In this document: in pieces, positions 3,132-36,806 of the stretch
Position numbering within the stretch: position 1 is the first letter of the stretch
Layout: each line of letters begins with the position of its first letter
Source: an uncultured Opitutia bacterium
Lineage (GTDB): Bacteria > Verrucomicrobiota > Verrucomicrobiia > Opitutales > Opitutaceae
Reading direction: 5' to 3'
Assembly: GCA_903902745.1 (NCBI GenBank)
Contig: CAIUWA010000027.1
Coordinates: 1-51,257, forward strand
DNA length: 51,257 nt
Notes under the pieces: generated by a model
The model's input: only the letters and a program-made list of their open reading frames with translations
Told to the model about the DNA's origin: nothing
The model's database searches: none
Made by a program: the position numbers and the translations under genes

Positions 3132-3173
3132 GTCGCGACTCCATGACCGTCAGGCGAATTTGCAACCCCGGAG

Positions 3174-4022: not shown

Positions 4023-4025
4023 GGC

Positions 4026-7440: not shown

Positions 7441-7461
7441 CGTGGTCCGGCGCGAAGGAAT

Positions 7462-8448: not shown

Positions 8449-8478
8449 GCGCGCGGAGTTAAGTTCTGAATCACGGCC

Positions 8479-20463: not shown

Positions 20464-23400
20464 ATGAAAGCACCCCGTAAAACTACATCGATGAATCCCG
20501 CGGCCAGCTTGCTGACGTCCGCGTTTTTGGCTCTGCTTTGTCCCGCACTGTTGCTGGCGCAAGCGGCGCCGAGTGCAGCCACGCTGGCCAAGTACGACAA
20601 GAACAACAACGGCCGGCTCGACGCGGATGAAATTGCCGCGATGCAGGCCGACAACGCGAAGGCCGCTCAGACGCCGGTCGCCACCGCGTCGAGTTCCTCC
20701 TCTGGCGAAGTCGTGACGCTCAACCCCTTCGAGGTCGATGCGAGCAAGGACATCGGCTACTACGCTGAAAACACTTTGGCCGGCAGCCGCCTGAAGACGA
20801 ACGTCGGCGACCTCGCCAGCTCGATCACTGTGGTGACGAAGCAGCAGCTTGAGGATACCGGCGCGCTCAACATCAACGACGTTTTCCTCTATGAGGCGAA
20901 CACCGAGGGTGCCAGCACCTACACGCCGCTGTACCTCAATCGCGGTAACGCGTCGGATTTGATCGGCGGCTACAGTTCGGACAACGGTCCGTCGTTCGGT
21001 ATCGCGCAAGCCAACCGCGTTCGCGGCTTGGGCTCGGCGGACACCGCCCAGGACAATTATCCGTCCCTGCCCCGCATTGCCTTCGACAACTACAATTCCA
21101 ACTCGGTCGAAATCAACCGCGGCCCCAATTCCATCCTCTTCGGTGCCGGCGGCGCGTCGGGCGTGGTCAACCAGTCCACGACTGAGGCTGCGCTTAACCA
21201 GCAGAAGTCGCGGGTCCAAGCTCGCTTCGGCAGCTTCGGCGCCCACCGGGAAAGCATCAGCACGAATGTTCCCGTCGGCAAGAAGGTCGCCCTGTTCTTC
21301 GCGGCCTTGTACGATAACAAGGAATTCGAGCGGAAGCCTTCCTCCATCGTGACCAAGCGCCAGTTTGCGGCCATCACCATCCAGCCGTTTGCCCAGACGA
21401 AAATCACGGGCAGCTTCGAGAACTACAACGATTTCAACAACGCCCCCAACTTCAACGAGCCGCAGGATGGTGTCAGCCCATGGTTGAATGCGGGCCGTCC
21501 AGGCTGGGATCCGACGACCCAGACCATTACTTTGGCCAACGGCACCGTGTCGGGTCCCTTCCTGAGTTCGACGCTGGATCCCCGCTGGATTGCGAATCCC
21601 TCCCTGACCGTCAATGGCACGGGTGGCTTCACCAGCTCCAGCTTGGCGACCTACATTCCTGGCATCACGAGCCACGGCAACAATGTCATCTTCTTCAACA
21701 ACGGTAAGCCCCAATGGTTCTTCGCGGCCAACGGCACATCGGGTGCGGGCACGAACGGAGCGACCGCGGTGCCGGCGGTCACGCAGAGAACGGCGGCGCA
21801 GTGGGTTCTCTCGAGCATCTCGAATACCCAGTCGAGAACTGATCTAACCCCCACCCCGCCTGCGTCCACGGGTGCGAACGCCATCGCTTCGTACTTTACT
21901 CCCGGTATCACTGACAAATCCATCTACGACTGGACGAAGTACAATTACACGGGCTCCAACTACTCCCTCACGACCAATAAGACATACAAGATCGAGCTCA
22001 ATCAGCAGATTCTCCAAGGGCTGAATCTCCAGCTCGGCTGGTTCCGGCAGGAGATGACTGACTGGCAGAGCCGCGGTGTTGGCCAGACCAATGCTGCCTC
22101 GACCATCCTCGTGGACACCAACACGAAGCTGATGGACGGCCGCCCGAATCCCTTTTTCGGAGCTCCGTTCGCCTACGACAACCAGACGGACACTTATTCC
22201 AGCCCGGAGCGGAATAACAACCTGCGTGCGACGCTGGCCTACCAGCATGACTTCACCAAGGCCCAAGGCTGGAGCCGTTACCTGAGCTTCATGGGCAAGG
22301 CTACCCTTTCAGCGGTGGCGAGCCAGCAGAAGGACGTCATCAACCGCGGGCGCTGGAGGCTCTCGCTCGATGGCGGTGATCCCCGGTTCCTGCCCAATCA
22401 GAACACCGGTAACGTCGCCAACAACTTTACGTGGGCGAGCAGCGCCAATATCGAACGCGATTACTACCTGGGTGGCACGGGCTCCAATGGTCATGTTACA
22501 CAAGGTGTGAAGGCACCGCGTGAGCCGAATTTTGGCGGTCCTAACAAGCTTCCCCTCAGTTATGTGGACTGGAACTCGACCCAGACGTGGCAGACGACGG
22601 ACATGAGCTTTGACGACAATCTGTACATCGCCGGCAACGGTCAGGGCGTGACCAACAAGACCTTGGATTCGACCAGCTTCGCCTATCAAGGCAGTCTTTG
22701 GAACAACCGCATCATCCCGACGATCGGCACGCGCTATGACAAGGTGCGGGTCTTCGTCCGCAACGGCTTGGGCTTGGGGACAACCCAGACCAGCGTGGGC
22801 GGTTTCACCAAGTATGAATACACGACCACCATGGGTGCGAAACCATATGATGTTGGTGGCGCCACCAACACCAAGGGCGTGGTCGCGCGGCCGTTCAGCG
22901 GCTGGCGGTCACTCGATGCCGCCGCGGAGCGCGGGAGCTTCCTCGCCGACATGGTGCGCGGCCTGGGCTTCTCCTACAATCACTCGGACAACTTCAGCCC
23001 GCCGCAGACCCTCCAGACCGATTTCTTCAGCACACCACTGCCCAAGCCATCCGGCAAGGGTGACGACTACGGCATCCGTGGTAGCATGTTCAACAACAAG
23101 CTGTCCTGGAACCTCAACTGGTACAAGTCCACCGCCGAGCACGCCGTGTCCGATGCGGCCAACACGGCGATCGGCCGTGCGCAACGTATCGATTCCAGCA
23201 GCATGAATGTCTGGGCTCGTGAGGTGGTGCGTATTCGCAATGGCCAGGATCCGACGGACGTCAACTTCGACAATAACACCGTGTTCCCCTTAACGATTGA
23301 TCAACAGAGACAGGTCAATGCACTGGTGGCCGGACCCGAGAAAGATGCGAATGGTTTTGCGGTAAAGACGGCGTTTACGATCCCCGGCGATCCGGATGCC

Positions 23401-24234
23401 CTGCCGAACAACACCCAGGGAACCAATTCCCTCGTGTCCAAGGGCAAGGAACTGTCCCTGATCTACAACCCGACGCGTAACTGGAACATCAAGCTAACGG
23501 CCGGACAGCAGGAGTCCAGCTACAGCAAGGCTTCCGGTGAAATCACCTCCTGGCTCTTTGGTTCGGGCAACTCCCAAAAGGGTGATGGCCGCAAGAACTT
23601 CTGGGAAAATGCCGCCGCGCCTGACCTTTCGACGGTTTATACCCGGAGCAACGGCAACAAACTGTTCCTTGGAAACTTCTGGAACAGCTACGGTTACGGT
23701 GGTGATGCCAACTCCAATAACGTCGGTGCGCTCAGCACGCCGAACACCACCTACTTCGGCATCGTCGACTCCCAGCTCTACCAGCTGATCACGCTGTCGG
23801 GCACGAAGTCTCCGGGCCAGCGCGAGTACTCCTCCTCCCTGATCACCAATTATTCCTTCCAAGAGGGAAGAATGAAGGGTCTGGCAATTGGTGGTGGCTT
23901 CCGTTGGGCGGCCAACGCCATCGTCGGTTATTATGGCAACTTGGATCCCGCGACCTTCTCGCACCCGAATAGCACCACGAACACGATCTCGTTCCCCAAC
24001 CTCGGGCAGCCCTTGTACATCCCGGCGACCACCAACTTGGATGTGTGGGCTTCGTACAGCACCCGTTTGCCCGTGTTCGGCAAGAGTGTTAGGGCCAAGT
24101 TCCAGTTTAACGTCCAATCCTTGACCGAGAGTGGCGGCCTGACGCCCATTCTCTATCAATACAATGGCGCGCCGGCTACCTACCGCATCACGGATCCTCG
24201 GACGTTCTTCGTGACCACCACGTTCGACTTCTGA
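20464..24234 (+). CDS. TonB-dependent receptor with N-terminal EF-hand-like loop
   Basis: A 1256-residue outer-membrane receptor. The signal peptide spans about 1-34 (LLTSAFLALLCPALLLAQA). Residues 45-56 (DKNNNGRLDADE) form a canonical EF-hand calcium loop inside LAKYD...IAAM. The plug domain starts at VVTLNPFEVDASKDIGYY (83 onward, probably including the TonB box), with EINRGPNSILFGAGGASGVVN near residue 220 closing the plug. The rest is a 22-strand beta-barrel rich in Asn, Thr, Tyr and Ser, ending in ...TTFDF with the terminal Phe typical of barrel proteins. It imports a large substrate using TonB/ExbBD energy; no SusD partner or substrate clue is adjacent. Monocistronic, with an intrinsic terminator 39 bases after the stop. 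Confidence 0.93.
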   Translation: MKAPRKTTSMNPAASLLTSAFLALLCPALLLAQAAPSAATLAKYDKNNNGRLDADEIAAMQADNAKAAQTPVATASSSSSGEVVTLNPFEVDASKDIGYYAENTLAGSRLKTNVGDLASSITVVTKQQLEDTGALNINDVFLYEANTEGASTYTPLYLNRGNASDLIGGYSSDNGPSFGIAQANRVRGLGSADTAQDNYPSLPRIAFDNYNSNSVEINRGPNSILFGAGGASGVVNQSTTEAALNQQKSRVQARFGSFGAHRESISTNVPVGKKVALFFAALYDNKEFERKPSSIVTKRQFAAITIQPFAQTKITGSFENYNDFNNAPNFNEPQDGVSPWLNAGRPGWDPTTQTITLANGTVSGPFLSSTLDPRWIANPSLTVNGTGGFTSSSLATYIPGITSHGNNVIFFNNGKPQWFFAANGTSGAGTNGATAVPAVTQRTAAQWVLSSISNTQSRTDLTPTPPASTGANAIASYFTPGITDKSIYDWTKYNYTGSNYSLTTNKTYKIELNQQILQGLNLQLGWFRQEMTDWQSRGVGQTNAASTILVDTNTKLMDGRPNPFFGAPFAYDNQTDTYSSPERNNNLRATLAYQHDFTKAQGWSRYLSFMGKATLSAVASQQKDVINRGRWRLSLDGGDPRFLPNQNTGNVANNFTWASSANIERDYYLGGTGSNGHVTQGVKAPREPNFGGPNKLPLSYVDWNSTQTWQTTDMSFDDNLYIAGNGQGVTNKTLDSTSFAYQGSLWNNRIIPTIGTRYDKVRVFVRNGLGLGTTQTSVGGFTKYEYTTTMGAKPYDVGGATNTKGVVARPFSGWRSLDAAAERGSFLADMVRGLGFSYNHSDNFSPPQTLQTDFFSTPLPKPSGKGDDYGIRGSMFNNKLSWNLNWYKSTAEHAVSDAANTAIGRAQRIDSSSMNVWAREVVRIRNGQDPTDVNFDNNTVFPLTIDQQRQVNALVAGPEKDANGFAVKTAFTIPGDPDALPNNTQGTNSLVSKGKELSLIYNPTRNWNIKLTAGQQESSYSKASGEITSWLFGSGNSQKGDGRKNFWENAAAPDLSTVYTRSNGNKLFLGNFWNSYGYGGDANSNNVGALSTPNTTYFGIVDSQLYQLITLSGTKSPGQREYSSSLITNYSFQEGRMKGLAIGGGFRWAANAIVGYYGNLDPATFSHPNSTTNTISFPNLGQPLYIPATTNLDVWASYSTRLPVFGKSVRAKFQFNVQSLTESGGLTPILYQYNGAPATYRITDPRTFFVTTTFDF

Positions 24235-24272
24235 TCCGATTGTGCCGGTTAGAACCGGCAAGTTATTTCCTC

Positions 24273-24309
24273 AAGCTCCCCCGCCCGAACGGCGGGGGAG
24301 CTTTTTTTT
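24273..24309 (+). terminator. Rho-independent terminator of the TonB receptor gene
   Basis: A perfect 13-bp stem (AAGCTCCCCCGCC, 24273-24285; GGCGGGGGAGCTT, 24291-24303) with a 5-base loop is followed by a run of eight Ts (24302-24309). A smaller hairpin (GCCGGTT/AACCGGC, 24244-24259) precedes it. This is the clearest intrinsic terminator in the window. Confidence 0.95.
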
Positions 24310-24450
24310 GCGGTCAGGGCACAAAATTCATTTTGTGGTTGGAGGGTGTTTTTTTAACCTGCACTGAAGCCTAACCGCATGATGCCCCAAAGATCACCTG
24401 GAGAGTCGCGCACGTTATTCAGCTACCGTCTCTAGGAAGCAGGCTACCTG

Positions 24451-26010
24451 TTGAAACCCGTGAAAATATTGAAAACATCAGCGGCGCCGGGGTTCGGGCC
24501 GGCGGCATCCCCCGGAGGGTGGATTCTGCTCGGCGGTGCCGTCATTGTCGGCGCTGCGCTCGCGGTGTACGCCAACAGTTTTCAGGTTCCCTTTGTTTTT
24601 GATGATCTGACTTCCATCCCGGGCAACCCCACCATCCGGAGTCTGGGGGAGGCATGGTGGCCGCCCAAGGGGCAGGGCGCCCTCACCGTCGCAGGCCGGC
24701 CATGGCTGAACTTCACGCTGGGGATGAATTATGCGGTCAGCGGACTGGAGGTATGGAGCTACCATGCGCTCAACTTCGCCATTCATCTTCTCGCGGGACT
24801 TGCCTTGTTCGGCTTGGTGCGTCGCACCCTCGTGCGGCCACTACTGGCGCCACGGTTTGAGAGCCAGGCCTTGCCGCTCGCACTGACGATCGCGGTCCTG
24901 TGGACGCTGCATCCGTTGCAGACCGAGGCGGTGACTTATGTCATTCAGCGCGCGGAGTCGTTGATGGGATTGTTTTTCCTCGTCACGCTGTATGGCTTTG
25001 TCCGGTCGGTGGAATCACCCCGGCCGCGCTGGTGGCAGGTCGTGACGGTCGCGGCCTGCCTGCTGGGAGTCGGCACGAAGGAAGTAGCGATCATGATCCC
25101 GGTCATGGTGCTGCTCTATGACCGGACCTTCGTCAGCGGTAGTTTCCGCGCCGCCTGGCGGCAGCACCGCTGGCAGCATCTCTCGTTGCTGGCGACGTGG
25201 CTGCCGTTGTTCGCCTTCGTGGCTAGCACGGGTGGCAATCGCAGTGGCGTCTTCCATTTGACGGAAGGCGCAATGTGGGTGGGGCACGGACTGACGCAAT
25301 TCGAAGCGGTCGCCCGCTACGTCGGGCTGGCGTTCTGGCCGCATCCGCTCGTGTTCGACTACGGCGAGATTCCCCCGCCGCCCTTGGCTGCGGCCCTGCC
25401 GTGGGCGCTGCCGGTGCTGGGGCTCGCGGTGGTGACGCTGGTGGCACTGTGGCGCCGGCCGGCCGCGGGCTTTCTCGGGGCCTGGTTTTTTGGGATCCTC
25501 GCCCCGACCTGCCTCCTGCCCGCCACGCTCCAGATCATTGTCGAGCACCGCATGTATCTGCCACTGGCGGCGGTCATCACCCTATTGGTGACCGGATCCT
25601 ACCTGTTGGTGGGGCGAAGGGTCATCATCGTGTTTCTGGCCCTTGCCGTGGGCGCCGGCTGGCTGACCGTCCGGCGCAACGAAGTATATCGCAGCGAGCT
25701 CAGCCTGTGGGGCGACACGGTGACGAAACGGCCGGACAACGATCACGCCCGCATTAATTATGGCCTGGCGCTCACGAAGGCGGAACGAACCGCCGAGGCA
25801 GCGGTGCAATTTGAGGCGGCGGTGCGGCTGCAGCCCGGCAGCCTGCAGGCGCACAACAATCTGGGCAATGCACGGGCACTGGCGGGGCGATATGACGAGG
25901 CCATCGCCGAGTATGAAATCGTCCTGCGCGGGCGACCGAACGAGCCAGGGGTGATCCAAAACCTGGAGCAGGTTCGCGCGATGAAGCGGTACTACCAGCA
26001 GAAGCAGTGA
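24451..26010 (+). CDS. TMTC-like multi-pass GT-C membrane protein with short TPR tail (copy 1)
   Basis: A 519-residue protein. An N-terminal hydrophobic region of about 10-11 helices carries FVFDDLTSIPGNPTIRSL, the acidic first lumenal/periplasmic loop of GT-C transferases, and LWTLHPLQTEAVTYVIQRAESLMGLFFL, which closely follows the HP.(H/Q)TEAV...GRA.. motif of eukaryotic TMTC O-mannosyltransferases. The C-terminus (about 420-510) holds two TPRs. GT-C enzymes use lipid-phosphate sugars on the outer membrane face of the inner membrane. The start is TTG at 24451 or GTG at 24460; neither has a strong ribosome-binding site. Two paralogues follow. Substrate unknown; transferase activity is inferred from family motifs. 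Confidence 0.72.
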   Translation: MKPVKILKTSAAPGFGPAASPGGWILLGGAVIVGAALAVYANSFQVPFVFDDLTSIPGNPTIRSLGEAWWPPKGQGALTVAGRPWLNFTLGMNYAVSGLEVWSYHALNFAIHLLAGLALFGLVRRTLVRPLLAPRFESQALPLALTIAVLWTLHPLQTEAVTYVIQRAESLMGLFFLVTLYGFVRSVESPRPRWWQVVTVAACLLGVGTKEVAIMIPVMVLLYDRTFVSGSFRAAWRQHRWQHLSLLATWLPLFAFVASTGGNRSGVFHLTEGAMWVGHGLTQFEAVARYVGLAFWPHPLVFDYGEIPPPPLAAALPWALPVLGLAVVTLVALWRRPAAGFLGAWFFGILAPTCLLPATLQIIVEHRMYLPLAAVITLLVTGSYLLVGRRVIIVFLALAVGAGWLTVRRNEVYRSELSLWGDTVTKRPDNDHARINYGLALTKAERTAEAAVQFEAAVRLQPGSLQAHNNLGNARALAGRYDEAIAEYEIVLRGRPNEPGVIQNLEQVRAMKRYYQQKQ

Positions 26011-26045
26011 AACGGCCGGAAATTCGGACCGGTCGACGCCTGCCG

Positions 26046-26075
26046 TTGACTTGTTTCCGCGTGCAACAAAATATT
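26046..26075 (+). promoter_or_regulatory. Candidate promoter for copy 2
   Basis: TTGACT at 26046-26051, 18 bases, then AATATT at 26070-26075. The same arrangement (TTGACT, 17 bases, AAACAT) occurs at 28230-28258 before copy 3, with shared flanking bases. Both predicted transcription starts fall at or next to a GTG codon, which suggests leaderless translation. The -35 is strong and the -10 weak. Confidence 0.45.
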
Positions 26076-26080
26076 CGCCG

Positions 26081-26167
26081 GTGAATCCCAGACGAAGCTC
26101 CGTCCTGGCCGGTTTGATCCCCTTCATCGCGGACGTTCGTCGCGGCGCCGCCCGAAGCATCCCGTGA
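26081..26167 (+). CDS. Small upstream ORF or relic of the paralogue N-terminus
   Basis: A 28-residue reading frame beginning GTG (MNPRRSSVLAGLIPF) and ending TGA at 26165-26167. Its start resembles the N-terminus of copy 3 (MNPGKRASVLAVLV), so it is either a leader peptide or the decayed 5' end of an older copy. Its last bases overlap the GTG start of copy 2 as GTGA, which would allow coupled translation. Position relative to the candidate promoter makes it close to leaderless. Confidence 0.4.
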   Translation: MNPRRSSVLAGLIPFIADVRRGAARSIP

Positions 26168-28200
26168 TACCGGGCGGCACCCCATTGTTTTCCCCCTCGC
26201 GCCGGGCCCTCTTTCTTGCCGGTGGCGTCATCGTGCTCGCGGCCTTGGCGGCCTACGCCAACAGCTTTGCCGTGCCGTTCATTTTTGATGATGCGGCATC
26301 GATTGCGCAGAATCCCAGCATCCGGCATCTCGCGCGGTTGGGCGAGGTCCTCGCGGGTCCGCCTTGGGGCGCGCTGACGGTGAACGATCGGCCGTTGCTC
26401 AATCTTTCGCTGGCGTTCAACTACGCCGCGGGCGGCCTGCAGGTGGAGGGCTATCACGGCGTCAACCTAGCGATCCATGTTTTCGCGGGCCTGATCCTCT
26501 TTGGCGTGGTGCGACGCTCCTTGCGGCAGCCGCCGCTGGCGGCGCGCTGGGGCGAAGCGTCGCTCCCGCTGGCCCTGGGCGTGGCGCTGCTTTGGATTCT
26601 TCATCCCCTGCAAACCGAAGCGGTGACCTACGTGATCCAGCGGGCCGAGTCGCTGCTCGGCCTGTGCTATCTGCTCACGCTGTACACCTTCATTCGCGGG
26701 ACGGCCTCTCCCCAGCCCTGGCGGTGGTATGCCTTCTCCCTGATCTGCTGCACGCTGGGCATGATGGCCAAGGAGGTGATGGTTTCGGCTCCCCTCATGG
26801 TCCTGCTTTATGACCGCACCTTTGTCGCGGGCTCATTTGGCCGGGCCTGGCGTGAACGCGGGCGGCTCTATGCCGGATTGGGCTGCACCTGGCTCGTACT
26901 GGGCTGGCTGATGCTGGGCCCCGGTGGCCGCGGCCAGTCGGTCGGCTTTGAAAACGGCATTCCCTGGTATGACTACGCCCTCACCCAGTTCACCGTCATC
27001 ACGCGTTATCTCGGGCTCGCCCTCTGGCCATTCCCCCTCATTTTTGATCACGGCGGGGCGGTGGTGGAACATTCGATGGTGCTCATCGTGCCCTCGGTGC
27101 TCATCATTTTGACGCTGGTGGGCCTTACCGTGACGGCCCTGCGTCATCGGCCGGTCCTGGGATTTCTGGGCTGCTGGTTCTTCGGTATTCTGGCCCCCAC
27201 TTCCAGTGTGGTTCCACTGGCGGACACCATGTTCGAGCACCGGATGTATCTGCCGCTGGCGGCCGTGATCATGTTGGTCGCGGCCGGAGTTTACCGGTGG
27301 GCCGGCCGGCGAAGTCTCTGGCTATTTTTAACTCTCGCGGTGGCGGCAGGAATGCTGACGGCCAGCCGCAATGAGGATTATCGCAGCGAGATGGCCATCT
27401 GGCTGGATACCGTGGCGAAGCAACCGGACAATGCGCGCGCGTACAACAATCTGGGTTCCCTCTGGCTCGCGCGGGACAACCTGGCCGAGGCGGAGAGTTG
27501 TTTTGCGAAAGCCGTGCAGCTGCGCCCGACTTACCCCTCGGCGAACTATAACCTGGGCATCGTGCTGGCCCGCACCGGCCGGGAGTCCGCGGCCTTGGGG
27601 CATTTCCTCACGGCCATTCAAGTGGAGGAGGGCTTTGTCGACGCCCGCATCAATGCGGGCAACACCCTGCTGAAAATCGGCCGCGTTCCGGAGGCGATTC
27701 GGCAGTATGAAATCGCGCTTCGCCAGCAGCCGGAAATGCCGGACCTGCATTATGACCTGGGCTTGGCGCTGGACCAGCTCGGCCGGCCGGCCGAGGCCAT
27801 TCGTGAATATGAGGCCGCCGTGCGGCTGAATCCCGCATTTCTGCAGGCGCAGATCAAGCTGGCGGAGATCGCAGCCGGGAAGGGCGACATGACCGCAGCC
27901 GAGAAAATCTATCGCGATGCTCTTCGCCTGCAGCCCGGGCTCACCGACATCCATCTGGCACTGGGGGACCTGCTGGCCGGGACAAATCGTTTCCCGGAGG
28001 CAATAGAAGAGTACCGGAAGGCCCTGGCCGCGGAGCCGGGCAACCGGCATGCGCGCTTCAATCTCGGCAATGCATTACTGCTCACCGGCAGGATCGATGA
28101 TGCGATCGCGCAGTATGAGCGGATCCCGGATGTGCCTGGTGTGGCGGAAAATTTGCAGCAGGCCCAGGCCATGAAGGCGTCCTCCGGTCGGGCTCCATGA
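26164..28200 (+). CDS. TMTC-like multi-pass GT-C membrane protein with seven TPRs (copy 2)
   Basis: A 678-residue paralogue of the flanking genes. AAYANSFAVPFIFDDAASIAQNPSI gives the acidic loop (about 35-59, shown in one stretch only by its key FDD). LWILHPLQTEAVTYVIQRAE is the TMTC-like motif, and APLMVLLYDRTFVAGSF follows as in the other copies. About ten helices run to residue 400. Seven TPRs follow (about 415-660), each with the YNLG..L...GR..EA pattern. GTG at 26164 is the first usable start and overlaps a short upstream frame. It is more diverged in its membrane part from copies 1 and 3 than they are from each other. TPRs could hold acceptor proteins or partners on either side of the membrane. 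Confidence 0.74.
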   Translation: MIPGGTPLFSPSRRALFLAGGVIVLAALAAYANSFAVPFIFDDAASIAQNPSIRHLARLGEVLAGPPWGALTVNDRPLLNLSLAFNYAAGGLQVEGYHGVNLAIHVFAGLILFGVVRRSLRQPPLAARWGEASLPLALGVALLWILHPLQTEAVTYVIQRAESLLGLCYLLTLYTFIRGTASPQPWRWYAFSLICCTLGMMAKEVMVSAPLMVLLYDRTFVAGSFGRAWRERGRLYAGLGCTWLVLGWLMLGPGGRGQSVGFENGIPWYDYALTQFTVITRYLGLALWPFPLIFDHGGAVVEHSMVLIVPSVLIILTLVGLTVTALRHRPVLGFLGCWFFGILAPTSSVVPLADTMFEHRMYLPLAAVIMLVAAGVYRWAGRRSLWLFLTLAVAAGMLTASRNEDYRSEMAIWLDTVAKQPDNARAYNNLGSLWLARDNLAEAESCFAKAVQLRPTYPSANYNLGIVLARTGRESAALGHFLTAIQVEEGFVDARINAGNTLLKIGRVPEAIRQYEIALRQQPEMPDLHYDLGLALDQLGRPAEAIREYEAAVRLNPAFLQAQIKLAEIAAGKGDMTAAEKIYRDALRLQPGLTDIHLALGDLLAGTNRFPEAIEEYRKALAAEPGNRHARFNLGNALLLTGRIDDAIAQYERIPDVPGVAENLQQAQAMKASSGRAP

Positions 28201-28229
28201 ACCGGTCATCGCGCGGGCTGCCCCTGCTG

Positions 28230-28258
28230 TTGACTTGTCTCCCTGGGCTTCAAAACAT
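28230..28258 (+). promoter_or_regulatory. Candidate promoter for copy 3
   Basis: TTGACT at 28230-28235 and AAACAT at 28253-28258, 17 bases apart. The predicted start point falls on the GTG at 28265, so the message may be leaderless. The segment is clearly related to the one before copy 2 (26046-26075). Confidence 0.45.
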
Positions 28259-28264
28259 CCGCGA

Positions 28265-30382
28265 GTGAACCCCGGGAAACGAGCCTCCGTGCTGGCCGTG
28301 CTGGTCATTGGCGCCGCGGCTTTGGCTGCGTACGCAAACACGTTCCGCGCCCCGTTCACCTTCGACGACGTTTCGTCGATCTTCGACAACCCCACCATCC
28401 GCCGGCTCTGGCCACCCGGCGAGGCGCTGTCACCGCCGGGCGGCTGGGGATTTACGGTGAGTGGCCGGCCGCTGCTTAATTATTCGCTGGCGGTGAACTA
28501 TGCCGTCAGTGGGTACGAGGTCTGGAGCTACCACGCGCTCAACCTCGTGATCCATCTCCTGGCCGGACTGACTTTGTTTGGCGTGATGCGGCGCACGTTC
28601 ACCCGTCCCTTGCTGGCGTCCCGGTTCGGAGAGCCGGCCTGGCCCCTGGCCCTCGTGATCGCCGCGATCTGGACGGTGCACCCGCTGCAGACCGAGGCGG
28701 TCACCTACGTCATCCAGCGCGCGGAATCATTGATGGGGCTGTTTTTTCTCCTGACGCTTTATGGCTTTGTCCGGTCGGTGGATTCGCCCACGCCCCGCCG
28801 ATGGCAGGCGGTCTCGGTCATGGCCTGCCTGCTGGGAGTCGGCACCAAGGAGATTGCCGCCCTGGCGCCGGTTCTCGTGTTCCTCTATGACCGGACCTTT
28901 GTCAGCGGCAGTTTTGTCGAGGCCTGGCGGCGGCATCGCGGGCAGCATCTCTCGCTCGTGGCGACCTGGCTGCCGTTGCTCTGGCTGCTGGCGGGCACCG
29001 GGGGTGATCGTGGAGGCACCTTCCATTTTTCCGACGGCGCGATGTGGGTGGGGCACGGTCTGACGCAGTTCGAGGCGGTCACCCGCTATGTCGGTCTGGC
29101 GTTCTGGCCACACCCGCTCGTGTTCGATTACGGCGAAATTCCGCCGCCGCGTCTGGGCGCGGCTCTGCCTTGGGCGCTGCCGGTTCTCGGGCTCGGTGGG
29201 GCCACGCTGGTGGCGTTGTGGCGCCGGCCGGTCATCGGGTTTCTAGGCGCCTGGTTTTTTGTGATTCTCGCCCCGACCAGCCTCCTCCCGGCCACGCTCC
29301 AGATCATCGTGGAGCATCGCATGTACCTGCCGCTCGCGGCGGTTCTGGCGTTTGCGTTTGGGGCTGCAGCCAGCTGGTTCGGGTGGCGGGCGGTGACAGT
29401 TGCCGGAGCGTTCCTCGCCGTCGCGGCGGTTGGGCTGACGTTGCAGCGGAATGAGGTCTACCGGTCCGGACAGGCCTTGTGGGAGGACACCGTGGCGAAG
29501 CGGCCGGAAAACGCCCGGGCCCTCAACAATCTCGGGCTCACCTATTATAACCTTGGTCGGGTCGCCGACTCGATCGGGCTCTATGAGAAATCGCGGCGCC
29601 TTGATCCCACCGTAGCCAACACGCACTACAACCTGGGTCTCGCGCTGATGAGCTCGGGCCGGGTTTCCGAGGCGGTGGCGCCATTCGAAGAGGCGGTGCG
29701 GATCATACCGTACTTCTTCAAGGCGCATTTGAACCTCGGAACCATCCTGATGCAGCTCGGCCGGGAGCCGGAGGCGGTCGCCCACTTCGCGGAGGCGCTG
29801 CGATACGACGCCGCTCCGGCAGAGGTTTATTTCCAATACGGGTTGATCCTGGCTGAACTCAAGCGCTGGGACCAGGCTGCCGAACAATACGCCAAGGCGG
29901 TGCAGATCGATCCCGGTTACGCGGAGGCGCAGAGCAACTGGGGCACCGCGCTGCTTCGCTTGAATGCGGGGGCCGCCGCCCTGGAGCATTTCAACGCGGC
30001 CGTCCGCCTGAAGCCGGATTCGCCGGATGTGCATTTCAACCTCGGGCTGGCGCTGGCATCGCTGGGCCGCCAGGCCGAGGCCGCGGCGCAATACAGGGAA
30101 GCCATCCGGCTGAACCCGGACCACGCCGATGCCCACCTCAACCTCGGCATCACCCTGGGACAAACCGGGCAGCTCCCGGAGGCGATCGTTCATTTGCAGC
30201 AGGCCGTGCGGCTGCGCCCAAACGACGTTCGGGTGCAGTATAACACCGGATACGCCTTGGTGACGGCCGGTCGCGGCCCCGAGGCGCGACCCTACTTTGA
30301 GAAAGTGCTCCGCCTGCAGCCGGCCAATACCGCGGCCCGCGACATGTTGCGTCAATTGGGTGAGCCCACCCCGGCTCCTTGA
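28265..30382 (+). CDS. TMTC-like multi-pass GT-C membrane protein with eight or more TPRs (copy 3)
   Basis: A 705-residue protein starting at GTG 28265 (MNPGKRASVLAVLV). It shows FTFDDVSSIFDNPTI, IWTVHPLQTEAVTYVIQRAE and LYDRTFVSGSF, as in copies 1 and 2. Over the membrane region it is strikingly close to copy 1, with shared runs such as LLGVGTKE, AMWVGHGLTQFEAV and RYVGLAFWPHPLVFDYGEIPPP. The C-terminal half has at least eight TPRs (HYNLGLAL, HLNLGTIL, HFNLGLAL, HLNLGITL and so on). A start at 28235 would lie within the candidate promoter and is rejected. The gene ends 23 bases before the convergent STT3-like gene. Function inferred: membrane glycosyltransferase. Confidence 0.76.
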   Translation: MNPGKRASVLAVLVIGAAALAAYANTFRAPFTFDDVSSIFDNPTIRRLWPPGEALSPPGGWGFTVSGRPLLNYSLAVNYAVSGYEVWSYHALNLVIHLLAGLTLFGVMRRTFTRPLLASRFGEPAWPLALVIAAIWTVHPLQTEAVTYVIQRAESLMGLFFLLTLYGFVRSVDSPTPRRWQAVSVMACLLGVGTKEIAALAPVLVFLYDRTFVSGSFVEAWRRHRGQHLSLVATWLPLLWLLAGTGGDRGGTFHFSDGAMWVGHGLTQFEAVTRYVGLAFWPHPLVFDYGEIPPPRLGAALPWALPVLGLGGATLVALWRRPVIGFLGAWFFVILAPTSLLPATLQIIVEHRMYLPLAAVLAFAFGAAASWFGWRAVTVAGAFLAVAAVGLTLQRNEVYRSGQALWEDTVAKRPENARALNNLGLTYYNLGRVADSIGLYEKSRRLDPTVANTHYNLGLALMSSGRVSEAVAPFEEAVRIIPYFFKAHLNLGTILMQLGREPEAVAHFAEALRYDAAPAEVYFQYGLILAELKRWDQAAEQYAKAVQIDPGYAEAQSNWGTALLRLNAGAAALEHFNAAVRLKPDSPDVHFNLGLALASLGRQAEAAAQYREAIRLNPDHADAHLNLGITLGQTGQLPEAIVHLQQAVRLRPNDVRVQYNTGYALVTAGRGPEARPYFEKVLRLQPANTAARDMLRQLGEPTPAP

Positions 30383-30405
30383 ATCACTGGACGGCGTCGG
30401 GGATC

Positions 30406-32928
30406 TTATTTCCGCCGGATGGGAGGCACGAGGCGCTCCGCCAGCCGTTTCAACGCCGGGTCGGGCAGGTCGACGCCAAGTCCGTCGCAGAGCGAGAGCA
30501 GATCGGAAAGGGTGCCGGGCGTCAGGTGCCGCAGGCTGCGTTCGTCCACTTTTTTAACGCCCAACCGCAGTTGCTCCCGCGCGAGTTCCATCTGCTGGGC
30601 GACCGCCAGCACCACGACGAGGTGAATATGATCATCCAAAGGCAGGGAAGGTGCCTGCCGCAGCCGGGCCATGACCCCGGCCATGGCGGTAGAAAAACCG
30701 GCCGGGTCCTGACGGCGCGATTCGAGACCCGCGAGCATCACGTTGGCCGCCAGATCGTTTCCAAATCTCGCCAGCATGGGGGCGAGCTGATTGCCAGGAT
30801 CCGGCTTGCCGGTCTCGAGATAGTAATTCGCGGCGTGGGCCGCCGCTTCCGGCAGAGTCTGATCGGGCACGACTTCCCAGATGCGGACCTGCTGGCCTTC
30901 CAAGGCGCTGTGTGCCGGCAGGGTGAACGGAATCGCCCGCAGCCAGGGCGGCGGCACGGCCGAGGCCAGCAGGTTGACCATGAAGGCATCCGTGGGAAGC
31001 AAGGCGGTGTCCGGCAGGCCGCGCGACAGCTTCACCAGGCCGATTTCAAAGGCGTCCCAGGAAAAAAATACAAAGTGGGTGACGCCAAGACGCCGGACCA
31101 GCTCATGGGCGGCCTCGGCGGAGGGCGCCGCAAAGAGTGCCGCCGCATGCCGCAGGCCTTCGGCATTTTCCCAATAGAGGGTGCCCAGACCGGCGAGCCC
31201 ACCCTGCGAAACCAGCAGGGTGGTGCCCGAGGGCGAGGAGGCGACCACGACCGGATCTTGGCCTGCGCGCTGCCGCAGCCAGTGGGCCACGTCGCGCTGC
31301 GCGAGGTTCCGGATCTCCGCCGTGGTGAACTCCGTTCCCACCGACATCTGGCGGCCGGCCTCAACTATGCCCGGCACGAGCAGGAGCCCGCAAGCGGCGG
31401 CCCAGGCAAGGATCACCGGGCGTTTTTTTTCACCCTGCGCTTCAAGGAGGCGAAAGAAGACCGCAATCAGTGGCACCGATAGGGCGTAGGCCAGGCCCAA
31501 CCAGCGGATCTGGTTCCAGCCCTGGATCCAGCCCAGCACCGCCGGGCAGAACGCAAGCACGAGATGGGCCTTCGCCTCCGACCCGGTGGACCGGCGCAGA
31601 ATCATCACCAGGGCGGGAACCAGCAGCAGGACAGGCAGGCATAACGCCGCAAAATTCCAGGACAACCCATGGGAGGAGTAAAGCCGCCGCAGGCTCTGGA
31701 ATTCCGAGATGTAGCGGGTATGGAGTTGCCACACGAACGGATCAGCCACGGTGAAGGTTTTCGCCGCCGTAGCGAGAATGATGGCCGGCAACACCGTGAC
31801 CGAGGCCGCAGCGAGCGCCCCGAGGGCCCAGTCACGGCGGGACAGTGCCCGCAGGCCGCCACGGGCGGACACGGCCAGCCGGAGCAGCTCACCGCCACCA
31901 ATCCACGCGACCGCATACAGTGGATGATTGACCTCGAGGCGCAGGCCGAAATGCAACGGAAAGTATTCGATCAGATAGGCCATGACACTCACGCCACCTC
32001 CGACCAGGCCCCAGAGGCGGAAAAGTCCCGGATCGCGCATCCAGGTGAGAGGCTGCGCCTGGTTGCGCCCAATCCAGCTGGCCGCCAGCACGCCCAGCCC
32101 AAGGCCGATCAACACGGGGACCAAGGTGGCCGCGCTGATCCACAAGCCGACGCCCCCGGCCAAGGCGGATCCGGCAAACCACCATTGGGCGGCGCGCCGT
32201 TCCCGGGCATCGGCGATGGACGCGTCCGGCGCCATGGCAGGCGCGCCCGGCCCGGATCTCCCGGAACCACCAGCAGTGCGGAGGGAACCCGCCGCCATCA
32301 GCAGCACGGTAAACATGCTGCAAATGTTCACCAGTCCATGATGATCCGTGCGCCCCGGCAGAAAATCGGTGTAGAACGGGAACATCGCCACGGCGCCGAT
32401 CGTAACGACGGCTCCCGCGACGACGGAAAATCTTCGGTTCAACAAGGGGAGGAGGCCAAGCAGCCACAAGCCGAACATGACGACCCCGGAGATCAGCGTC
32501 GCCCGCTCGACCGAGATGCCGATGGGCCGCCCCGTCACGAGGTGGTCGATCCAGGCCAGAAATGCCAGCCACCAGTGCAACGGGGCCGCCCAGTGCACTT
32601 CGCGTCCCTGCGGCACATTGTCATATTCTACCCGGCGAACGCGCCAATCGCCTTGGGCGATCATCGCCTGGGTTTGCATCACCCAGTGGGCGGTGTCCTC
32701 GTCTGCCTCCGGCAACAGCATGGACCTCATGCCCTGTTCATACCCGGTGGGCGATTGTGCATCGATGGCCGGCGGATCCACCGTGACGCCGTAGCTTGCG
32801 GTCACCTGCAGGATGTGCCGGCTGCGCGCGACCGTGTCCCAGATCAGAAAGCCCATCACGACCAGCGGCACGACCAGCCGCAGGAGCCAGGAGGATCTGC
32901 CAGGCAACGCGTCGCGGTTTCCGGTCAT
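30406..32928 (-). CDS. STT3/AglB-like GT-C membrane protein
   Basis: An 840-residue protein with a first helix (about 15-33), a large acidic external loop with DEDTAHWVMQTQ (77-88) and VHWAAPLHWWLAF (111-123), then a GRTDHHG motif (192-198). About 12 helices run to residue 530, followed by a soluble C-terminal domain of about 300 residues. The order (acidic first loop, catalytic-looking D-x-x-H segment, multi-pass region, C-terminal soluble domain) resembles the STT3/PglB/AglB oligosaccharyltransferases, but the WWDYG-type motif of true STT3 is not seen. It may therefore transfer another sugar. It is transcribed toward the three TMTC-like genes. ATG at 32928 follows a GGGGA stretch. Confidence 0.62.
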   Translation of the reverse strand: MTGNRDALPGRSSWLLRLVVPLVVMGFLIWDTVARSRHILQVTASYGVTVDPPAIDAQSPTGYEQGMRSMLLPEADEDTAHWVMQTQAMIAQGDWRVRRVEYDNVPQGREVHWAAPLHWWLAFLAWIDHLVTGRPIGISVERATLISGVVMFGLWLLGLLPLLNRRFSVVAGAVVTIGAVAMFPFYTDFLPGRTDHHGLVNICSMFTVLLMAAGSLRTAGGSGRSGPGAPAMAPDASIADARERRAAQWWFAGSALAGGVGLWISAATLVPVLIGLGLGVLAASWIGRNQAQPLTWMRDPGLFRLWGLVGGGVSVMAYLIEYFPLHFGLRLEVNHPLYAVAWIGGGELLRLAVSARGGLRALSRRDWALGALAAASVTVLPAIILATAAKTFTVADPFVWQLHTRYISEFQSLRRLYSSHGLSWNFAALCLPVLLLVPALVMILRRSTGSEAKAHLVLAFCPAVLGWIQGWNQIRWLGLAYALSVPLIAVFFRLLEAQGEKKRPVILAWAAACGLLLVPGIVEAGRQMSVGTEFTTAEIRNLAQRDVAHWLRQRAGQDPVVVASSPSGTTLLVSQGGLAGLGTLYWENAEGLRHAAALFAAPSAEAAHELVRRLGVTHFVFFSWDAFEIGLVKLSRGLPDTALLPTDAFMVNLLASAVPPPWLRAIPFTLPAHSALEGQQVRIWEVVPDQTLPEAAAHAANYYLETGKPDPGNQLAPMLARFGNDLAANVMLAGLESRRQDPAGFSTAMAGVMARLRQAPSLPLDDHIHLVVVLAVAQQMELAREQLRLGVKKVDERSLRHLTPGTLSDLLSLCDGLGVDLPDPALKRLAERLVPPIRRK

Positions 32929-33200: not shown

Positions 33201-35231
33201 ATGATCTACGGAAGCCTCCATTTCATCGACCTCGCCATCATCCTGCTTTACCTCGGGGCGGTGGTTTACATCGGCCTGCGCGCGGCCAAGGGCACGAATT
33301 CGGAGGAGAGTTTTTTCCTCGCGGGGCGCAAGCTCGGCAAGCTCTACCAGTTCTTCCTCAATTTCGGCAACGCCACCGAGCCGCAGGGCGCGGTGAGCAC
33401 GGCGAGCTTTGTCTACCAGCAGGGCGCGCCGGGTTCCTGGCTCTCGTTTCAAACCGTGTTCATGAACCCGTACTTCTGGTTCATGAATGTCTGGTTCCGC
33501 CGCGTCCGCCTGACGACCCTCGCCGACTTGTTCGAGGACCGCTTCGCGAGCCGGGGCCTGAGCATGTTCTACGCGCTGTTCCAGATCCTCGTGGCCTGCG
33601 TCTTTCTCGGCTTCGGCAATGTCACCGCCTACAAGATCGCCTCCTCGCTCGTGGTGAAGCCCGAGGCCACTTGGACGGCATCGGATCGCGCCTCGATCGA
33701 GGGCTACCGCGACCTGAAGCAGCTGGAGAAAAGCTTCGCCGCCGGCACGCTCGCGGCGGACGCCAAACCGCAGCTGGATCTGCTGCGCGACCGCAACGCC
33801 CGCGGCGAATTGCACAGTTACATCACGGTGCTCAGTGACGTGACATTCTACACGGTCTTTTCCATCATTGTCGGAACCTACATCGTGCTCGGCGGCATGG
33901 CGGCGGCCGCGGTCAACGAGGGTCTGCAGAGCATCCTGATCATTGTGTTTTCGGCCCTCCTCATTCCGACGGGCCTGCATGCGATCGGTGGCTGGCATGC
34001 GCTCAGCCAGAAGGTTCCGGCCCGGATGTTCGACCTGCTGGGGGCAAGCGGCACGGACCAGTTCTCCCTCTGGGCGCTCGGCGGCATCCTGCTGGTGAGC
34101 ATTGTCCAGAATGCCGGGCTGAGCCACAATATGGGCATCTGCGGCTCGGCCAAGAATGAGTTCGCCGCCCGCACCGGCGTGTCGGGCAATTATCTCAAGC
34201 GGCTCATGATCATCATGTGGGCTTTTGCCGGCCTGATCGCGGTGGCCCTGTTCGGCACCGGTGGCCTCTCGGACCCGGACGCGGCCTGGGGCGCGATGTC
34301 CAACCAACTGCTCGGACCGGGGCTGATTGGCCTGATGCTCGCCGGCGTGCTGGCCGGCACGATGTCCACCCTCGCGGCCAAGGCGCTGGCGATCTCATCG
34401 CTGTTTGTGCGCAATGTATTCCGGCAGATCTGGCCCGGCATCACGCAGCAGCAAGGTGTCTTCTATGCACGCTGCACGATCGTGGCCATTCTGGCTCTCG
34501 GCACGCTCGCCGCCCTGCAGATGGGCAGCTTTTTCTCGATCATCAATATCGTGCTCACCGTTAACATTCCCTTTGGTGCGGCCGTGCTGATGACTTACTG
34601 GTGGAGGCGGACTACGGCCCCCGCCGTATGGTGCTGCGTCATCCTTTCGACGCTGGCGGTCATCGTCGTCCCCTGGACCGCCTCGAAGATTCCGGCGCTG
34701 GCGACGAATCCGGCCCTCACCCAGATGAGTACGAAGGCCGGGACGGGGGTTTATTTTGGATCGGTGGTCCACCAGCGCGAGAATGACCTCTCCAGCCCGC
34801 TCGTCGCGAAGAGCGGCCTCAACCGGTTCAACTTTGAGGCCTGGGCTTTGGGCAAGGCGGGCCTCGACGTGACGTCGCTCACGCCGAACCAGCGGTTGAC
34901 GGCCCAGCTTTTCTCCGACGGGCTTTTCCCGTTCGTGGTCATCATCCTCGTCAGTCTCGTGACCCGGCATGCCGATCCGGCGCGCGTCGCGGTGTTCTAT
35001 GGCAAGATGAAGACCCCGGTCGGTGCGACTCCGGAACTCGAGGCGGCCGCGATGGCGGAGACCGTGCGCAATCCGATGCGTTTTGAGCACACCAAGCTGG
35101 TGCCCTCCTCCAATTGGGAATTTTGCAAATGGGACCGGGTCGACGGAATTGGTTTCGTCATCTGCGTCGCCTTGTCGGCCGTGATCATCGGCATTTTCAT
35201 CGGCGCGCTGCGGATGGCTGCTGCCGGATGA
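33201..35231 (+). CDS. Sodium:solute symporter (SSS family)
   Basis: A 676-residue permease with about 13-14 helices. The N-terminus FIDLAIILLYLGAVVYIGLRAAKG and EESFFLAGRKLG are typical of SSS proteins, as are NFGNATEPQG in helix 1-2 and LAGVLAGTMSTLAAKALAISSLFV near the middle. Two long soluble insertions (about 150-200 and 500-570) make it larger than the ~500-residue average. It brings in a sugar or other organic solute with sodium. It overlaps the oxidoreductase gene by 4 nt (ATGA) and is followed by L-rhamnose mutarotase, so a deoxy-sugar or uronate-type substrate is plausible but not shown. Confidence 0.88.
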   Translation: MIYGSLHFIDLAIILLYLGAVVYIGLRAAKGTNSEESFFLAGRKLGKLYQFFLNFGNATEPQGAVSTASFVYQQGAPGSWLSFQTVFMNPYFWFMNVWFRRVRLTTLADLFEDRFASRGLSMFYALFQILVACVFLGFGNVTAYKIASSLVVKPEATWTASDRASIEGYRDLKQLEKSFAAGTLAADAKPQLDLLRDRNARGELHSYITVLSDVTFYTVFSIIVGTYIVLGGMAAAAVNEGLQSILIIVFSALLIPTGLHAIGGWHALSQKVPARMFDLLGASGTDQFSLWALGGILLVSIVQNAGLSHNMGICGSAKNEFAARTGVSGNYLKRLMIIMWAFAGLIAVALFGTGGLSDPDAAWGAMSNQLLGPGLIGLMLAGVLAGTMSTLAAKALAISSLFVRNVFRQIWPGITQQQGVFYARCTIVAILALGTLAALQMGSFFSIINIVLTVNIPFGAAVLMTYWWRRTTAPAVWCCVILSTLAVIVVPWTASKIPALATNPALTQMSTKAGTGVYFGSVVHQRENDLSSPLVAKSGLNRFNFEAWALGKAGLDVTSLTPNQRLTAQLFSDGLFPFVVIILVSLVTRHADPARVAVFYGKMKTPVGATPELEAAAMAETVRNPMRFEHTKLVPSSNWEFCKWDRVDGIGFVICVALSAVIIGIFIGALRMAAAG

Positions 35232-36466
35232 GCGCGGGAACCTCCAGCCCGGACTCCGGGGACTGGTCAGGCCTGCCTGCGGCGGGCTCTCCGGCCCGCG
35301 TCGCCCTGATCGGCATTTCGGGTTACGGGCGCATCTATCTGCAACTCGTGCGCGAGCTGCTGGACCGCGGAGCGATCAAGCTGGTGGCCGCGGTGGTCAT
35401 CAACTTGGACGAGGAGGCGCAGAACGTCGCCGAGCTGCGCAGCCTGGGTTGCACGGTCTATTCCGATTATGAGGAGATGCTCCGCCGGCACGCGGGGAAG
35501 ATCGACCTCTGCCTGATTCCCACCGGGATCCAGTGGCATGCGCGCATGACTATCGCCGCGTTGAAGGCCGGAATGAATGTGCTGGTGGAAAAGCCTCTGG
35601 CGGGCTCGCTGCGTGATATCCATGCCATCCGCGACGCCGAGCGTGCGGCCGGCCGCTTCGTGGCTGTGGGCTTTCAGGATGTGTACACTCCGGGCACCCG
35701 CTGGCTGAAGCAGCAGTTGTTGGACGGCGCCATTGGCCGGGTGCGGTCGATCCGCGTGCTGGGCCTCTGGCCGCGACCAGCCTCGTACTATACTCGCAAC
35801 AACTGGACGGGGCGCCTGCAGGTCGGGGGCGTCGCGGTACTCGATTCACCGCTGAACAACGCCTTCGGCCATTTTGCCAATTTGGCCCTGTATTTTTCCG
35901 GCGGAAGCCTGGAGGAGGTTGCCACCGCCAGCCGGGTCGAGGCGGAGCTTTTCCGCGCCCATGCCATCGAGAGTTTTGACACCGCGGTGGTCCGCGCCCG
36001 CGCCGGGGCGGACGTGGCGCTTTGGTTCGGCTTCACCCACGCCTGCCGTGAACTGGTCAACCCGGAGATTGTGATCGAGGGATCGGCCGGCCGGGCTGTC
36101 TGGTCCTACGAAAAAATCTGCACCATCAGCCCGGCCGCCGGGCCGGAGCGGTCGCATCCCCTGCCGGCCTCGATTGACACGCGGCGCGTGATGTTCACCC
36201 GGATCCTGCAGCATCTCCACGACGCCACGGTCGCGATTTGCACCACGGCGATGGCGGAGCCGCACACGGCATTGATCGAGGCAGTGCTCGCCGCGGCGCC
36301 GGTGCGCCAGATCTCCCCGGATCTCATTGATCGGATTACACCGGCCGACGGCACATCGCCCCTCCTGGCGGTGCGGGGAATCGAGGCGGCGATGCAGGCC
36401 GCAGGTCGGCAGCAAAGCCTGCTGCGCGAGATGGGGGTTGCCTTGAGTGTTGCCATGCCGGTGTGA
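35228..36466 (+). CDS. Gfo/Idh/MocA-family oxidoreductase
   Basis: A 412-residue NAD(P)-dependent dehydrogenase-like protein. [17 protein letters not shown] is the Rossmann GxxGxG-type loop (about 25-41), [10 protein letters not shown] is the EKP motif that holds the catalytic Lys of the family, and [17 protein letters not shown] continues the fold. The C-terminal alpha/beta domain has [22 protein letters not shown], matching the substrate-side D..(x)H region. Members oxidise sugars, inositols or amino sugars. ATG at 35228 overlaps the symporter stop. The rhamnose mutarotase gene follows by 25 bases, so a three-gene sugar operon is likely. Substrate unknown. Confidence 0.86.
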
Positions 36467-36491
36467 ACCGATGGGCTGGCCTCTTTCCACC

Positions 36492-36806
36492 ATGATCCGA
36501 AAAGCCTTCGTAATGAGCGTTCAGCCGGGGCAGGAAACGGAATACGCCCGCCGCCACCAGCCCATCTGGGCCGAACTCACCGCCGTGCTCAAGGCGCACG
36601 GCGCGCACAACTACTCCATCTTTCTCCACCCGGAGACCCGCCAGCTTTTTGCCTATGTCGAAGTCGAGGACGAGGCCCGCTGGGCGGCTATCGCGAAGAC
36701 CGAGGTCTGCCAGCGCTGGTGGAAACACATGGGCGACATCATGCCGGGCAACCCCGACCACAGCCCGGTGGCGCGTGACCTGAAGGAAGTCTTCCACCTC
36801 GATTGA
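36492..36806 (+). CDS. rhaM: L-rhamnose mutarotase
   Basis: A 104-residue dimeric alpha/beta-barrel protein, the same length as E. coli RhaM. Tyr18 and His22 ([10 protein letters not shown]) and Trp76-Trp77 ([12 protein letters not shown]) sit at the positions of the E. coli active site. It interconverts alpha- and beta-L-rhamnose so that the isomerase receives the right anomer. ATG at 36492 gives the family's normal start. Rhamnose isomerase, kinase and aldolase are not in the window. It also shows that the upstream symporter and oxidoreductase may handle rhamnose or a related 6-deoxy sugar. Confidence 0.93.

Follow-up and report, generated by a model that had tools for sequence, protein, structure and literature searches.

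We analysed a 51,257-nucleotide contig of an uncultured Opitutia bacterium (CAIUWA010000027.1, assembly GCA_903902745.1), hereafter the window. A unit at 20464-32928 consists of a TonB-dependent receptor gene, three plus-strand open reading frames (ORFs) encoding TMTC-like proteins and a convergent ORF encoding an STT3-like protein. A previous sequence-only reading of this DNA had described three consecutive genes with an FDD motif, an HPLQTEAV-type motif, membrane helices and C-terminal tetratricopeptide repeats (TPRs), facing a convergent 840-residue protein with an acidic loop and a DHHG motif; ORFs and motifs were found as described. FDD and HPLQTEAV are present in each of the three plus-strand ORFs, and the 840-residue protein contains DEDTAHW, DNVPQGREVHW and DHHG. 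ORF starts (TTG/GTG/TTG) were assigned mechanically and are uncertain. The features of the unit are:

20464..24234, plus strand: TonB-dependent receptor, 1256 amino acids, with a Plug match; candidate acceptor or partner
24451..26010, plus strand: TMTC-like protein 1, 519 amino acids; GT-C-like domain and short TPR tail
26164..28200, plus strand: TMTC-like protein 2, 678 amino acids; GT-C-like domain, TPRs and a weak PMT_2 match
28235..30382, plus strand: TMTC-like protein 3, 715 amino acids; GT-C-like domain and TPRs
28361..28369, plus strand: FDD of TMTC-like protein 3, after the first membrane helix; corresponds to TMTC motif M1 (motif definition from PMC7801869)
28679..28702, plus strand: HPLQTEAV of TMTC-like protein 3, in the second external loop
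30406..32928, minus strand: protein of predicted STT3/AglB fold, 840 amino acids, convergent to the TMTC-like genes (AF2 model, AglB match)
32590..32622, minus strand: DNVPQGREVHW of the STT3-like protein, in the first external loop
32335..32346, minus strand: DHHG of the STT3-like protein
31219..31236, minus strand: SPSGTT of the STT3-like protein, where STT3 carries WWDYG (placed by sequence order, not superposition)
30430..30858, minus strand: C-terminal TPR-like domain of the STT3-like protein (family profile and VIA matches)

Human TMTC1-4 belong to family GT105 of CAZy and O-mannosylate cadherins; HPVHTEAV is the human TMTC form of the window's HPLQTEAV. To our knowledge, the question of how TMTC enzymes choose their acceptors is unsolved. 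Pfam TPR models matched all three plus-strand ORFs, with at most 2, 6 and 8 stretches per single model, and protein 3 matched TPR_2 at E 2.2e-52. Protein 2 also matched PMT_2 (E 1.1e-4, 22.9 bits), under the cut-off of 26.1 bits. The AF2 model of protein 3 (707 residues; predicted local distance difference test score, pLDDT, 92.0; predicted template modelling score, pTM, 0.84) contains, judging from its helices and hydropathy as we read them, 11 membrane helices and then the TPRs, two further amphipathic helices being taken as juxtamembrane. On this reading, loops 1 to 5 carry, in this order, FDD, HPLQTEAV/QRAES, TKE, FDYG and EHRMYLP. According to the available portion of Eisenhaber et al. 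2021 (PMC7801869), human TMTCs have 11 membrane helices, a DD pair in the first external loop, the motifs RxD, KE(T/Q)xxT, DW and ERxxY in loops 2-5 and TPRs in the lumen. As we read the model, the TMTC motifs occupy the loops stated there for the human proteins. The likeness to human TMTC1-4, within what that portion describes, thus comprises a membrane domain followed by TPRs, 11 helices (our reading), DD in the first external loop, and the motifs RxE, KE, D(Y) and E.R.Y, each in the corresponding loop.

The motifs were followed through 85 TMTC-like GT-C domains, a set that includes the three of the window. In FDD the first D is kept in 84/85 and the second in 85/85, and therefore the acidic residues, whose absence from homologues the sequence-only reading had said would count against it, are not lost. 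Similar conservation holds for GRP (R in 82/85, P in 85/85), HPLQ (H 84/85, P 85/85), QRAES (R 83/85, E 82/85) and TKE, which was compared with TMTC motif M4 (K 85/85, E 82/85). FDYG, compared with the DW of M5, has D in 69 or E in 13 of the 85, followed by Y in 81/85 and not by W; EHRMY, compared with the ERxxY of M7, keeps E in 82, R in 82 and Y in 84, with the Arg one place later. Among 26 aligned rows with identities as low as 18%, the invariant columns include D36, D37, H141, P142, R154, K197, D211 and Y356. The membrane domain is of steady length (median 404 residues), and the tail beyond it varies from 90 to 394 residues across the 85 domains. At E up to 0.1, PMT_2 matched 10 of 43 of these domains and TMTC_DUF1736 one of the 43 (E 0.0025). 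A 15-row profile of the GT-C domain found nothing among solved structures up to E 10, and Pfam detected PMT_2 in two of the same 15 rows. Fold searches with the protein 3 model returned TPRs only: these filled the match lists and masked the membrane half, and residues 1-287 were barely covered.

TMTC-like genes are numerous in this group. A search with the protein 1 membrane domain, in which a split match counts twice, found matches in at least 31 of 57 genomes, the source genome included, reaching at least 10 in the source genome, at least 23 in G024 and at least 18 in G008. A tree of the domains made by a quick method places proteins 1 and 3 in one young clade (Shimodaira-Hasegawa-like approximate likelihood ratio test, SH-aLRT, 96), each with a counterpart in G002, a genome of the same genus, and protein 2 in a separate lineage paired with another G002 protein (support 100). 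A second, distant TMTC-like set of 563-720 amino acids was also seen (L072_8, L074_8, L081_3, L098_5), two of which, L081_3 and L098_5, adjoin a member of the main family.

In all domains of life, STT3-type enzymes transfer sugar chains to proteins. The AF2 model of the 840-residue protein (pLDDT 93.8, pTM 0.93) was closest to AglB 3wak (Z 20.6, root-mean-square deviation 4.3, 595 residues aligned); other AglB entries scored Z 18.0-19.2, eukaryotic oligosaccharyltransferase (OST) chains 15.5-18.8, DPY19 17.7-18.6 (575 residues aligned at 18.6, identity 9%), ArnT 14.2 and PglB 13.7. The C-terminal globular domain of AglB (3vu0_C) also aligned with the model (Z 10.9, root-mean-square deviation 2.7, 138 residues). 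All of the top 19 VIA rows are AglB/OST, DPY19 or OST-containing translocon chains (9n9j_I identified by inference), and Foldseek concurs with an STT3 fold (7e9s, E 3.5e-11). The model thus indicates that the protein carries an STT3/AglB fold, in agreement with the identity that the sequence-only reading had proposed. That reading had also named structural models without a GT-C fold as a result that would speak against it: such a result is excluded for the STT3-like protein, and for the TMTC-like proteins the question is masked in the membrane half by the TPR matches. Residues ~691-833 of the STT3-like model matched the TPRs of OGT (Z ~10, VIA), and the family profile matches TPR chains. When the TPR part was left out, the profile's top match among solved structures was a nucleoside transporter (E 0.0092), which we judged to be chance, followed by AglB C-terminal domains (E 0.014 and 0.095) and DPY19 (E 5.6).

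An alignment of 62 rows, the window protein plus 61 of 82 listed ORFs over 600 amino acids, showed that D78 is kept in 61 rows, D103 in 61, D195 in 60, H196 in 61, H197 in 60, E409 in 61 and R475 in 61. From sequence order and the known features of STT3, we take D78 to be the first-loop acidic residue, D195-H196-H197 the DxD-like motif, E409 the Glu of TIXE/SVSE and R475 the donor Arg. A WWDYG-like pattern was found in 0/62 rows within the stretch equivalent to window residues 540-600, and a conserved G.GTLYWEN-type stretch lies close to the place expected for WWDYG. Pfam alone found nothing in the window protein, neither TPR nor PF02516, and PF02516 matched 1 of 55 family members, the window protein not among the matches. 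The archaeal-type STT3 model TIGR04154 matched the window protein over residues 104-486 at E 6.1e-4 with 18.2 bits against a 450-bit cut-off; among the 55 members it matched 35 with E no higher than 0.1, the best at 1.8e-17. The protein thus shares with AglB, STT3 and PglB the fold with its C-terminal globular domain, the acidic residues, DHH, the TIXE-like Glu and the Arg, and differs from them in lacking WWDYG, in the GTLYWEN-type stretch nearby and in the additional TPR-like domain: an STT3 fold with catalytic-type residues that has no sequon reader and carries an extra TPR-like domain.

These data bear on whether the protein could be a genuine N-linked oligosaccharyltransferase with another way of reading its sequon. 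AglB as the best fold match, including its globular domain, the retained DHH and TIXE-like Glu, and the spread of TIGR04154 matches through the family all speak for this; the missing WWDYG, the near-complete absence of PF02516 and the low TIGR04154 score of the window protein speak against it, and we regard it as highly doubtful. The label of oligosaccharyltransferase given by the sequence-only reading was accordingly dropped, because the defining WWDYG was looked for and is not there. The protein may work like an oligosaccharyltransferase or like DPY19.

STT3-like matches occur in 23 of 57 genomes, the source genome included. Eleven STT3-bearing loci were compared, among them those of G001 and G002, both of the genus of the source genome. 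STT3-like and TMTC-like genes are convergent neighbours in five of the 11 (window, G001, G002, G024, G030); in G018 the two lie on the same strand with one gene between them, and the remaining five loci have no TMTC-like gene in view. The survey of gene order that the sequence-only reading had called for thus found the pairing to recur in relatives. A scan of named genomes gave 79 STT3-like loci, from the best 80 of 105 qualifying stretches, with neighbours considered up to 10 kb around each STT3-like gene. By title, nearly all are from Verrucomicrobiota, the exceptions including one Eisenbacteria and two Lentisphaerae. TMTC-like genes were present in 11 of the 79 loci, namely seven of the 14 loci L121-L134 and four of the other 65. 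L190 has three TMTC-like genes on each side of the STT3-like gene, all distant from those of the window, and in L196 the STT3-like and TMTC-like genes are ~2 kb apart. Receptor, TMTC-like and STT3-like genes stand together in the window, L121, L123, L124 (its receptor cut by the contig end) and L126; by their coordinates L121, L123 and L126 are G024, G002 and G030 and therefore do not add to the comparison of 11 loci.

Several STT3-like genes have a glycosyltransferase family 2 (GT2) gene as neighbour. In 10 of the 79 loci, counted on stop-to-stop ORFs, the STT3-like gene has a GT2 gene on its own strand that overlaps it or is at most 100 bp away. The single GT2 compared with solved structures was most similar to dolichol monophosphate mannose (DPM) synthase 5mlz (E 6e-13). 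GT2 genes also occur in the receptor/TMTC-like/STT3-like contigs L124 and L126, and in L196 with TMTC-like and STT3-like genes. Of the 109 genes immediately beside TMTC-like genes, 4 matched a profile of the GT2 cluster (one weakly, at 45.8 bits), versus 0 of 412 further genes. The source genome has GT2 matches at C25, the best of which is flagged for one in-frame stop in the matched stretch.

The GT2 neighbours and the DPY19 scores allow another explanation, that the STT3-like protein transfers a monosaccharide in the manner of DPY19, from a polyprenyl-phosphate sugar, and that the TMTC-like proteins act independently, outside any joint pathway. DPY19 scores level with OST subunits as a fold match, WWDYG is absent, a DPM-synthase-like GT2 stands directly beside the STT3-like gene in the 10 loci above, suggesting a dolichyl-phosphate-mannose-type donor, and 68 of the 79 STT3-like loci lack a TMTC-like gene in the stretch considered, of at most 10 kb. 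The likeness to DPY19 is one of fold, at the 9% aligned identity given above, and an independent role of the two families fits poorly with their direct convergent pairing in five of 11 STT3-bearing loci, with direct pairing again in the distant L190 and with the short distance in L196. We consider this explanation distinctly unlikely.

Other neighbours of STT3-like genes point to the cell surface. In eight of the 79 loci (L136, L137, L139, L140, L141, L143, L163, L164) a giant ORF (cluster 9), of over 3,100 codons where uncut, has the STT3-like gene downstream of it at a distance of no more than 240 bp; one of the eight is a 173-residue contig-end fragment. The single giant ORF scanned (L141) contains DUF3739 and belongs to the filamentous haemagglutinin family. 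Cluster c8 proteins adjoin STT3-like genes in G015, G018 and G035, and the one scanned is an FG-GAP/ASPIC protein. Paired c8 proteins lie near STT3-like genes in L104, L111 and L115, the intact ones having 1134-1235 amino acids.

The receptor encoded upstream of TMTC-like protein 1 matched Plug at E 6.8e-5, with 23.8 bits against a cut-off of 23.9 and 29.6 bits in a six-frame search. By eye, its N terminus has an EF-hand-like stretch and a Ser/Thr-rich linker (EF-hand models gave E 0.05 or worse); by our own reading the EF-hand-like stretch is found in 6 of 16 cluster c1 receptors. Plug matches lay within 5 kb of 11 of 32 TMTC-like loci versus 4.24 expected (P 0.0017), a comparison whose idea came partly from the same loci, and G024 showed no such excess (1 of 10 versus 1.53 expected). 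A general tie of TMTC-like genes to all TonB receptors was rejected, as the excess is only modest.

The close subfamily of the window receptor, defined by a single full-length match at E below 1e-160, has 15 members in the 12 genomes searched; one G021 receptor gene, matched in two pieces, was left out. Nine of the 15 directly adjoin a TMTC-like gene (two each in G000, G002 and G015, one each in G024, G008 and G026). In five genomes, 6 of 9 subfamily receptors are TMTC-adjacent versus 6 of 268 other receptors (Fisher P 1.2e-7, where orthologues are not independent and the TMTC-like genes are those among the matches listed). The receptor-TMTC tie is thus strong only for the window receptor's own subfamily. 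The sequence-only reading had suggested one enzyme per acceptor set, which these data do not show; what they show is one TonB-dependent receptor subfamily often beside TMTC-like genes.

Taking fold, motifs and gene neighbours together, we lean towards reading the unit at 20464-32928 as an island for protein glycosylation in the periplasm that draws on polyprenyl-phosphate sugars, because this is the simplest account of all three. The glycosylation locus proposed by the sequence-only reading is retained in its TMTC-like architecture, its STT3-like fold and its recurrence in relatives, and given up in its enzyme labels. In the island as we picture it, a GT2 of the DPM-synthase kind, encoded elsewhere in the genome, would load a sugar onto polyprenyl phosphate, and the loaded sugar would be flipped to the periplasmic face. 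The TMTC-like proteins would then transfer it, through the acidic pair of the first loop, to Ser/Thr of exported proteins held by their TPR superhelix. The STT3-like protein would act likewise with an AglB-like active site. With another sequence in place of the sequon reader, and with the extra TPR-like domain, it would probably select acceptors by TPR contact and not by Asn-X-Ser/Thr. The adjacent TonB-dependent receptor would be the best candidate acceptor. The gene content, the conserved motifs, the predicted STT3 fold and the recurring locus are what we observed; donor, linkage, sugar, acceptor and sidedness are what we infer in this scheme.

A number of observations weigh against such an island, besides the 68 STT3-like loci without a TMTC-like gene. 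No activity or glycoprotein is known for loci of this kind. Of SHKSYRP, the mannose-contact motif M2, just R (82/85) and P (85/85) are kept, and DUF1736 (PF08409) matched none of the three window TMTC-like proteins in Pfam at E up to 0.5. These two features, with the many copies per genome, set the window's proteins apart from human TMTC1-4; the label of O-mannosyltransferase given by the sequence-only reading was withdrawn on their account, and because of them mannose is an unproven candidate for the transferred sugar. A DUF1736 search of the source genome gave no match, and is uninformative because no control genome matched either. DHH is lost in several STT3-like paralogues of a more diverse 24-row set. 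The island of the window itself contains no GT2 of the DPM-synthase-like kind. AglJ (TIGR04182), the best NCBIfam match (below cut-off) of the two GT2s tested, was rejected as a donor marker: it is not diagnostic, matching 12/12 relatives below cut-off and 11/14 control genomes, 2 of them over cut-off. L125 is closely related (48%) and holds a receptor relative and two STT3-like genes, but no TMTC-like gene. Finally, six of the 15 close receptors have no TMTC-like gene next to them (G000:C16:81090, G002:C58, G024:C42, one in G006 and two in G021); G021 has no TMTC-like gene among the matches listed.

About 14 kb upstream of the TMTC-like genes, window positions 400-10263 hold an exosortase/exopolysaccharide-type locus, which includes:

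400-1644: FtsW/RodA-type protein
1641-3131: Wzy_C protein
3174-4022: GT2 of the exosortase-type locus
6100-7440: polysaccharide-flippase-type protein
8479-10263: exosortase fused to DUF3485

A PEP-CTERM sorting signal is found at window positions 50250-50327 on the minus strand, and the genome gave five such hits. The exosortase, Wzy_C, flippase-type and GT2 genes of this locus, together with ArnT among the fold matches of the STT3-like protein, would suit GT-C transferases whose targets are polysaccharide or lipid (exopolysaccharide, O-antigen or lipid A), in the manner of ArnT or GtrII, with the TPRs as scaffolds. AglB/OST and DPY19 outscore ArnT, however, and the recurring neighbours that could be identified are of surface type (TonB receptor, filamentous haemagglutinin family, FG-GAP/ASPIC). 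Moreover, in L072, the one relative in which the far side of the receptor is visible, the next gene is a distant TMTC-like gene and not an exosortase locus. We judge decoration of polysaccharide or lipid to be unlikely.

For the protein-glycosylation island, part of the ground was already covered. The available portion of Eisenhaber et al. 2021 (PMC7801869) reports full-length TMTC homologues in many prokaryotes, with AMJ42_05695 as an example; they have the same domain order as the window's proteins, and that portion describes no locus, partner gene or expansion for them. The STT3-TPR family without WWDYG, its occurrence beside TMTC-like genes and the receptor-linked island did not turn up among the open-access papers listed, subscription papers and preprints lying outside that scope, and a search for GT105 together with Verrucomicrobiota gave no open-access paper. 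The available portion of PMC4973528, the one open-access paper found for OST/STT3 with Verrucomicrobiota, gives no description of this STT3-like protein. A wider proposal, which we put forward as a tentative possibility, is a two-enzyme, sequon-free glycosylation of surface proteins in Verrucomicrobiota, in which multiplied TMTC-like proteins and a WWDYG-less STT3 with a TPR reader of its own would use polyprenyl-phosphate sugars on a dedicated subfamily of TonB-dependent receptors, elsewhere in the phylum on giant filamentous adhesins, with acceptor choice set by the TPRs. If this were true, TMTC enzymes could be studied in bacteria as tractable models, and protein engineering would gain an STT3-fold enzyme that no longer depends on the sequon. 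Through the receptor link, the question of the acceptor could be addressed directly by mass spectrometry in a cultured relative.

Beyond the STT3-like gene, window positions 33201-36803 carry a sodium:solute symporter gene (PF00474) and, after it, two ORFs with conserved synteny in G001 and G002; by eye only, these two look oxidoreductase- and mutarotase-like.

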